DNA of 64,000 bases from Bradyrhizobium guangdongense (GTDB lineage: Bacteria; Pseudomonadota; Alphaproteobacteria; Rhizobiales; Xanthobacteraceae): assembly GCF_006483445.1 (NCBI RefSeq), contig NZ_PPPT01000005.1, forward strand, positions 1-64,000. Direction: 5' to 3'. The notes beneath the pieces were generated by a model. It had not been told where the DNA came from. It did not search any database and saw only the letters and a list, made by a program, of their open reading frames with translations. Numbering within the stretch: the first letter of the stretch is position 1; each line of letters starts with the position of its first letter. The position numbers and the translations under genes are program-made. Below are positions 9,401 through 10,191 of this stretch, piece by piece.

Positions 9401-9915
9401 AGGATCGCAAGCCGCGTCACGATCGCAACCGTCACCAGCATCAGCGCCATCGTCATCAGCCGCGTCCGCAAGAGAGTGCGCAGGCGGGTGCTGCTCCCGC
9501 GGAAGGCGGCGAGGCGACACCGGCGGCAGATGGCGAGAAACGCCATGAGCGTCATCGTCACGGCGGACCGCGCAAGGACTTTCGCAAGGGCCGCGAGCAG
9601 GGCGGTGAAGGCGGCGAGCGCAGAGAGCCGCGCGGCGACGACAAGAACCGCCGCTTCGAAGGCAAGGATCGCAACCAGGACCGCGATCGCAACAAGGGTA
9701 AGTTCGGCGGCGGTGGCGATCGCGACAAGGTTCGCGACAATCGTGGCCGCGATCGCGACAAGGGCCGTGACCGGCGCGACCGCGAGGGCGGTCCGTCGCT
9801 GCGTCCCTACGCCTCGAGCGCCAATCCGCGCGAGCGCGATCGTCCCATCGATCCGAACTCGCCCTTCGCAAAACTCGCCGCGCTGAAAGAGCAGCTCGCG
9901 GGGCGCAAGGAGTAG
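6493..9915 (+). CDS. SUV3-like superfamily 2 RNA helicase with long disordered tail
   Basis: Encodes 1140 residues. The N-terminal helicase core has Walker A GPTNTGKTH (28-36), DEVQ box (110-113), and a second RecA domain with the motif VI-like QIAGRAGR. This is the mitochondrial SUV3 / DEAD-DEAH helicase type that in eukaryotes unwinds RNA for degradation; a related RNA-decay or ribosome role is inferred here. From about residue 830 the protein becomes Ala/Glu/Pro-rich, and from about 970 it is a highly charged Arg/Asp/His/Gly tail with DRDR and RNRHQHQRH-like stretches, likely an unstructured RNA-binding segment. The stop lies only 3 bp before the likely start of the next gene, so an operon with the S4 protein is expected. 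Long open frames on the opposite strand are compositional shadows. Confidence 0.93.
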   Translation: MAFSSFSSASERVHSERAPGSGVTAVLGPTNTGKTHLAIERMLAHSSGMIGLPLRLLAREVYNKIADRVGSEAVALVTGEEKIKPKNPRYWVSTVEAMPRDLDLSFLAVDEVQIASDLERGHVFTDRILNRRGRDETLLLGAATMRPIVERLLPGASIITRPRLSTLEFAGDRKITRQPRRTAIVAFSADEVYAIAELIRRQHGGAAVVLGSLSPRTRNAQVAMFQNGDVDYLVATDAVGMGLNLDVDHVAFASDRKFDGYQFRRLTPSEFAQIAGRAGRATRNGTFGTTGRCAPFEPELVNALQNHTFDSVKVLQWRNSKLDFASLGALQVSLNLAPGHEALTRAPIAEDMRVLDHAARDGEVRDMAHGKAAVERLWEACQVPDYRKLSPAAHAELVTTLYGFLMQKGRIPDAWFGAQVNQADRTDGDIDTLSGRIAQIRTWTFVANRPDWLADPEHWQGITRELENKLSDALHERLTERFVDRRTSVLMRRLRENTSLNTEIGKTGEVIVEGHVIGRLDGFTFAPDAAEAGSDAKALQAAAQAVLAGEINARAEKLGAAPDEQFVLTSDGTIRWTGDAVARLSAADEALTPRVRIISDERLTGSPREKVQARLDLWLKTHIEKLLGPMFELSKAEDVTGIARGIAYQLVEALGVLERQKIANELKDLDQASRATLRKYGVRFGAYHLYFPQLLKPAARALAALLWALKQDNVDLSALSGAQHLASSGRTSFPVDKTLPRDAYRVLGYKQAGERAVRVDILERLADLIRPALAWRETSPGEKPAGAFDGRSFVVTQAMTSLTGSAGEDFASILRALGYRMEKRAPLPPKPVVAETPAAAPAEGEAVAEAAAAETPATDTGIEAAAEPVTVEDAPGMEQDAEPHAAPALEATPETPVTPEDAPGIAPPAEEPAPVEASAEDSAAITAATEAAASPDAAAPVEAASTETAASEAPAEPQLVEVWRPGGRHEDRKPRHDRNRHQHQRHRHQPRPQESAQAGAAPAEGGEATPAADGEKRHERHRHGGPRKDFRKGREQGGEGGERREPRGDDKNRRFEGKDRNQDRDRNKGKFGGGGDRDKVRDNRGRDRDKGRDRRDREGGPSLRPYASSANPRERDRPIDPNSPFAKLAALKEQLAGRKE

Positions 9916-9918
9916 CCC

Positions 9919-10191
9919 ACGACCGAGCGCCAGCGCCTCGACAAATGGCTGTGGCATGCGCGGGTGGTGAAGGCGCGCACGTCGGCGGCCGAGCTCGTCG
10001 AGCGTGGCCATGTCCGCATCAACGGCGTGCGCGAGACCTCGCCAGGACATGCGATCAAGATCGGCGACGTCCTGACCATCGCGCTCGATCGTACCGTCCG
10101 CGTGATGAAGGTGATCGCATTCGCCGAGCGGCGCGGCGATGCTGATGCGGCGCGCGTGCTGTATGAGGAGTTGCAACAGCGGCAATCGTAA
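9919..10191 (+). CDS. S4-domain RNA-binding protein (Hsp15/HslR-like), putative ACG start
   Basis: The frame reads TTERQRLDKWLWHARVVKAR and onward through an S4 RNA-binding domain (AAELVERGHVRINGVR), ending after 90 residues. The family is related to E. coli Hsp15, which rescues stalled 50S-nascent chain complexes. The S4 fold needs the RLDKWLWHARVVK segment, yet this frame has no ATG, GTG or TTG between the in-frame stop at 9913-9915 and the GTG at 9964, which would remove the first part of the domain. An ACG codon at 9919 sits 6 nt after a perfect AAGGAG (9907-9912) and exactly where relatives have Met before TERQRLDKW. I therefore call ACG as the start, either a rare start codon or a T-to-C change. 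The AAGGAG lies inside the end of the helicase gene, indicating coupled expression. Confidence 0.8.
   Translation, partial: TTERQRLDKWLWHARVVKARTSAAELVERGHVRINGVRETSPGHAIKIGDVLTIALDRTVRVMKVIAFAERRGDADAARVLYEELQQRQS

Follow-up and report, generated by a model that had tools for sequence, protein, structure and literature searches.

The gene for an S4-domain protein that lies downstream of a helicase gene in Bradyrhizobium guangdongense very probably begins at an ACG codon. The best explanation of the locus as a whole is that this ACG, at position 9919 of the window (the entire stretch of 64,000 nucleotides that was analysed), is the true start, long kept across a clade of the genus, and that it would be used with the help of a strong Shine-Dalgarno (SD) sequence and, in most lineages, of termination-reinitiation. 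A preliminary description of the window had noted an apparent ACG start, which is now strongly supported, at the level of sequence comparison, by genus-wide conservation and by an anchored-codon test. Three features by which a non-canonical start is recognised, namely no canonical start nearby, an SD sequence and conservation across species, were found.

Table 1. Features of the helicase-S4 locus, in positions of the window
Feature	Position	Strand	Basis or remark
Upstream gene, Suv3-like DEXQ-box helicase, 1140 aa	6493..9915	+	Pfam DEXQc_Suv3 80.9 bits, Helicase_C 45.4 bits
Shine-Dalgarno AAGGAG	9907..9912	+	6 nt gap to ACG
TAG, helicase gene stop	9913..9915	+	3 nt before ACG, in frame with S4 gene here
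ACG, proposed start codon	9919..9921	+	Sequence, conservation and anchored-codon test
Hsp15/RqcP-like S4-domain protein, 90 aa including the ACG codon	9919..10191	+	Pfam S4; best PDB match Hsp15
Rival internal GTG	9964..9966	+	Start there would drop S4 profile positions 1-15

In the window, both the SD sequence and the stop that precede the S4 gene are supplied by the last helicase codons, AAG GAG TAG. CCC at 9916-9918 separates the TAG from the ACG, which is followed by ACC GAG CGC CAG CGC CTC GAC AAA TGG. The window sequence bears out two points of the preliminary description, the placing of AAGGAG 6 nt before the ACG (9907-9921) and the lack of any ATG, GTG or TTG in the S4 frame from the TAG to the GTG at 9964; the sole in-frame NTG in that interval is the CTG at 9949. 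The statement that homologs begin at precisely this point is true of the nearest relatives, which have the same ACG; more distant ones begin NTG-[D/E]-R-Q-R and are one codon shorter. The RNA near the start shows no remarkable folding (z 0.12 and 0.40), and an explanation by RNA structure was rejected.

The form of the protein that starts at ACG matches the Pfam S4 profile over its full length (1-48) with 45.5 bits against a cut-off of 22.8, whereas the form starting at GTG 9964 scores 29.1 bits and matches positions 16-48 only, a truncation that the preliminary description had anticipated. The NCBIfam Hsp15 model gives 55.0 bits for the ACG form and 29.8 for the GTG form, neither of which reaches the equivalog cut-off of 148. 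Its match covers positions 7-88 of 133, and the protein is without the C-terminal extension beyond the S4 domain that is described for Hsp15 in a section of PMC8012679. Since the curated score is not reached and the extension is absent, membership in the Hsp15 family is not claimed. The best PDB matches are nevertheless Hsp15 chains, with RqcP (YabO) lower in the list. RqcH, the partner of RqcP, was not found in the window's genome, in the sense that this genome (93% complete) gave no match to NFACT_N, a search that was positive in 11 of 14 control genomes. Judging from these matches, the protein may work like, or near, Hsp15 and RqcP, which are S4 proteins of the 50S subunit. The window's genome has six S4-domain hits including this gene, and a plasmid search gave matches to the FdxA region only.

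The comparison of homologous loci that the preliminary description had proposed found the same ACG in 144 of 265 Bradyrhizobium genomes. Another 118 have a start of the ATG/GTG/TTG type, at least 114 of them TTG, and three (G132, G135 and G227), with weak matches only (23-31% identity), were counted as lacking a clear ortholog. The pattern ACG-NNN-GAR-R-Q-R occurs in 110 genomes and NTG-[D/E]-R-Q-R in 115, and no genome has both. TTG is the start in 112 of these 115; one of the other three was read as GTG (L119) and two are known as NTG only. The 40 genomes matching neither pattern were read one by one. Seventeen of them (L137-L153) have ACG with a longer N-terminus or with GAC replacing GAR. 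Twenty more (L157-L176) comprise four with ACG ACC ACC/ACA GAG, three with ACG GAC, ten with ACG TCC/TCG/TCT in which the ACG stands about 8 nt past an SD-like stretch, and three with NTG starts, these being TTG in L163 and L165 and ATG in L166. Across 84,980 species genomes the ACG pattern was found at 74 loci. Records that bear the name Bradyrhizobium account for 72 of these, a Bradyrhizobiaceae MAG for one and a record named 'Frankia sp. RB7' for the remaining one. The DNA of this Frankia record (L297, JAUEPE010000014.1) is identical over 480 nt to loci L026/L193 of the Bradyrhizobium genus, and the record is probably mislabelled or contaminated.

Canonical start codons are scarce upstream of the ACG in the genus as well as in the window. 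Distinct loci with the motif numbered 242, and 136 of these are without ATG, GTG or TTG in the eight codons preceding the motif; ACG is present within those eight codons in all 136. In 128 of the 136, ATG, GTG and TTG are absent all the way to the in-frame stop, a count that refers to distinct loci and not to all 144 ACG genomes, some of which are represented by a 30-base match only. The remaining eight comprise L166 with its ATG, five loci with an in-frame TTG 14-22 codons upstream (L167, L171, L172, L173 and L176, all of the L167-L176 lineage) and two with NTGs only more than 50 codons upstream.

Because the ACG itself had been located by search in the SD count, an anchored-codon test was run in which the SD and stop element served as the anchor and the first codon in the S4 frame at least 3 nt past the stop was taken. 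The long-branch row L277 was excluded from this test and from the dN/dS counts. Of the 127 loci with the element, 119 have ACG as the anchored codon (the other eight having AGG in four cases, CCC in two, GCG in one and TAG in one), as do 93 of the 96 tips of the main clade, where the three exceptions (two CCC, one GCG) have an ACG further on. The three positions of the anchored codon required 2, 0 and 1 parsimony changes, compared with a mean of 11.4 and a minimum of 1 across 38 fourfold sites in the gene. Threonine inside the S4 protein is mostly encoded by ACC, so codon preference does not account for ACG at the start position. The codon following the ACG is variable, being ACC in 88, ACG in 25, TCC in 11 and one of seven others in the rest of the 136 loci, and the N-terminus can gain a codon (ACG ACC ACC GAG, ACG ACG ACC GAG) while the codon at the SD distance is still ACG. 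In 25 of the 136 loci the ACG is expanded into runs of two to four ACG codons that resemble a small triplet repeat (L194/L288, L016, L009).

The evolutionary history of the codon can be read from a quick maximum-likelihood tree of 154 of the 160 usable loci, six near-copies having been dropped and L277 forming one long row. The six outgroup loci have TTG, as do the branches of the genus that diverged early, and ACG is thus most simply derived from TTG and kept thereafter. Loci from other genera of the family numbered 46, of which 45 were readable (L241 showed no motif). Within the eight codons ahead of the motif, the NTG closest to it is TTG in 31 and GTG in 14, and none of the 45 relies on ACG. 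On the tree, 97 ACG loci including that of the window form one clade with an SH-aLRT of 96, and the L166-L176 lineage is sister to this main clade with joint support of 87. Three further ACG loci (L159, L162 and L164) are placed elsewhere. The ACG label requires four changes, at least two of which are forced by strong branches, and the switch from TTG to ACG probably took place more than once. ACG is a later arrival in the genus and is fixed in a large Bradyrhizobium clade. One outgroup locus, L211, was placed inside the genus on this tree.

It is very unlikely that translation begins instead at GTG 9964 or at a neighbouring GTG to give a truncated S4 protein. GTG 9964 is the first in-frame NTG apart from CTG 9949, 121 of the 136 ACG loci have GTG at the same codon, and at least one GTG of the internal pair is present in 135 of the 136. 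The second GTG of the pair is kept in 119 of 121 ACG loci and in 58 of 65 TTG loci, so that it is better conserved in the former, but the first is not (112 of 121 and 60 of 65, respectively), and these counts cut both ways. A start at the GTG would remove about a third of the S4 profile, and purifying selection acts on the 12 codons that precede it, dN/dS being 0.076 in the main clade (96 loci, 1500 pairs sampled), 0.002 in L166-L176 and 0.010 in the TTG loci. The codons between the ACG and GTG 9964 are very likely translated, as this purifying selection implies, and the GTG start was rejected on the loss of profile and on dN/dS. It is highly improbable that stop readthrough or frameshifting yields an S4 part fused to the helicase, a reading favoured by the in-frame TAG of the window, since the relative frame of the S4 gene varies among loci. 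All three frames are represented (82, 14 and 1) among 97 long ORFs that end within 13 nt of the ACG, and the stops differ. Editing of the mRNA from C to U, turning ACG into AUG in the manner of plant organelles, seems extremely improbable. Start codons generated by editing in plant organelles are described in the portions of literature drawn upon, but we know of no mRNA editing of this kind in bacteria. The preliminary description had also raised a point change or sequencing error. Both an error of sequencing and an ATG mutated in recent times can practically be dismissed, as nothing was found in favour of either and the same ACG recurs across 144 genomes and in the 74 loci of named public records, so that it is no artefact and no mutation peculiar to this genome.

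The sequences before the ACG suggest how such a codon might be used. AAGGA or AAGGAG lies 6-9 nt ahead of the ACG in 125 of the 136 distinct ACG loci, and the 18 nt searched upstream of the ACG hold none of the SD strings in three, whereas 55 of the 65 distinct loci that start with TTG, five of the 65 being outgroup loci, have none of the sought strings in the 16 nt searched upstream of the TTG. In 117 of the 136 a stop codon precedes the ACG by 3-5 nt, within the few nucleotides expected of termination-reinitiation. The ORF that it ends has 60 codons or more in 94 loci and is short in 23, the long ORF being the helicase gene where loci were printed and read, as opposed to being identified locus by locus. 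At TTG loci the stop of the long ORF lies at a variable distance of 1-39 nt, and nine have none within 59 nt. The helicase stop and the S4 gene are separated by a repeat, its core resembling CGCGTGAAGAAAACGCGTC, in 24 of the 136 ACG loci and in four of the 65 TTG loci; it is carried, for example, in the upstream regions of L157 and L162. Most of the repeat-bearing ACG loci have a new AAGGA-like stretch and stop after the repeat, just before the ACG. All but one of the 23 short ORFs have at their end a peptide characteristic of the inserted repeat, such as KKTRQKE, and in these 22 loci the AAGGA-like stretch and the stop again stand 3-4 nt ahead of the ACG after the insertion.

In the mechanism that we propose, the initiator fMet-tRNA, with its CAU anticodon, would pair with A1 and G3 of the ACG, leaving a central C-A mismatch, and the near-consensus SD sequence 6-9 nt upstream would hold the ribosome and make the codon usable. 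In most lineages the ribosome would terminate on the helicase gene 3-4 nt upstream and then reinitiate at the ACG; in loci with the inserted repeat the terminating ORF would be the short ORF instead of the helicase gene. The weak codon would probably result in a low yield of the S4 protein that is tied to translation of the helicase. What the sequences show is that the ACG is conserved, that no other start lies close by, how the SD sequence and the stop are spaced, that the N-terminal codons are under purifying selection and that the change went from TTG to ACG; initiation at the ACG, the reinitiation step and the low yield are the parts that we infer. The earlier suggestion that ACG could limit expression is plausible. 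Alternatively, the ACG could be reached by ordinary de novo binding of the 30S subunit at the strong SD sequence, with the nearby stop incidental and no reinitiation involved. This is a real though lesser possibility. It is favoured by the difference in SD content between ACG and TTG loci and by the L167-L176 lineage, most members of which keep the SD sequence and the ACG while the close stop is not kept. A stop at 3-5 nt is missing in 19 of the 136 loci, including the lineage L166-L176, and coupling is therefore not universal. The regular placing of the stop in the other loci, and its return at 3-4 nt behind a short ORF in the 22 loci with the repeat, speak against de novo binding.

The IF3 gene of the window's genome (L332, G000:C337, about 5385) has an apparent ATT start after GGAG, which suggests that ordinary start-codon discrimination operates in this genome. 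One reading, which seems unlikely, is that ACG was selected as a sensor. IF3 would normally reject the codon with the C-A mismatch, and the S4 protein, which is of the ribosome-rescue type, would be made mainly under reduced initiation fidelity or when ribosomes remain bound to the mRNA after termination on the helicase gene. If this were true, the ACG would be a natural fidelity-sensing start beside the infC AUU, on a gene for ribosome quality control, and would break the central-U rule.

The AUU of infC is the classical non-canonical start under IF3 discrimination. It resembles the Bradyrhizobium ACG in being a weak start codon behind an SD sequence and kept across species, but AUU retains the central U and ACG does not. 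Plastid genes, in the accounts drawn upon, likewise have ACG at the start position; unlike the Bradyrhizobium case, these starts are tied to RNA editing or to plastid ribosomes. The VP2 protein of AAV also starts at ACG and relies on eukaryotic scanning, again unlike the case described here. Comparable in arrangement are termination-reinitiation pairs as portrayed in sections of PMC10666635, with stop and start 3-4 nt apart and the SD sequence inside the end of the upstream gene; those sections argue that short stop-start distances are necessary for reinitiation. An excess of IF3 hinders reinitiation according to a passage of PMC2268962. Weighing against ACG as a start, an E. coli reporter study places it, in the part cited, among codons giving 0.1-1.5% of the output of ATG (PMC6925171). 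The central U is called universal in start codons in a passage of one review (PMC4611024), measured against which a conserved ACG start would be a lasting exception. ACG appears solely as a mutated codon in IF2 in PMC2859245, and neither PMC4842269 (Bradyrhizobium TSS mapping) nor PMC10117765 (Sinorhizobium Ribo-seq) has in its main text a word that starts with 'ACG'. Among the open-licence PMC papers listed, none showed a bacterial ACG start that is both natural and conserved, which is not proof of absence.

A gene that starts with ACG throughout a large clade would be evidence that a start codon with a central mismatch can persist as a stable, inherited option when SD sequence and coupling are suitable, and the natural relatives, TTG mostly without an SD sequence versus ACG with one, offer a test system for this. 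Gene callers restricted to ATG, GTG and TTG would be expected to shorten or miss the S4 protein in more than half of the genus (144 of 265 genomes), and perhaps other genes of the same kind as well.

Reinitiation at non-AUG codons is reported in a part of PMC2268962 with matching mutant initiator tRNAs, whereas the Bradyrhizobium initiator has the ordinary CAU anticodon. An initiator-tRNA pattern with the anticodon left free matches in 257 of the 265 genus genomes, ACG and TTG genomes alike, and as the core pattern is common to both it does not explain the difference between them. No CGU anticodon occurs among the matches listed (up to G148), all of which are CAT, and the single match in the window's genome is tRNA-Met(CAT). 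A dedicated initiator tRNA with a CGU anticodon was rejected on these grounds. In the anticodon stem of this initiator tRNA (L330:1482-1558), A-U stands in place of the first of the three G-C pairs of the E. coli initiator tRNA, as the latter is described in a section of PMC2268962.
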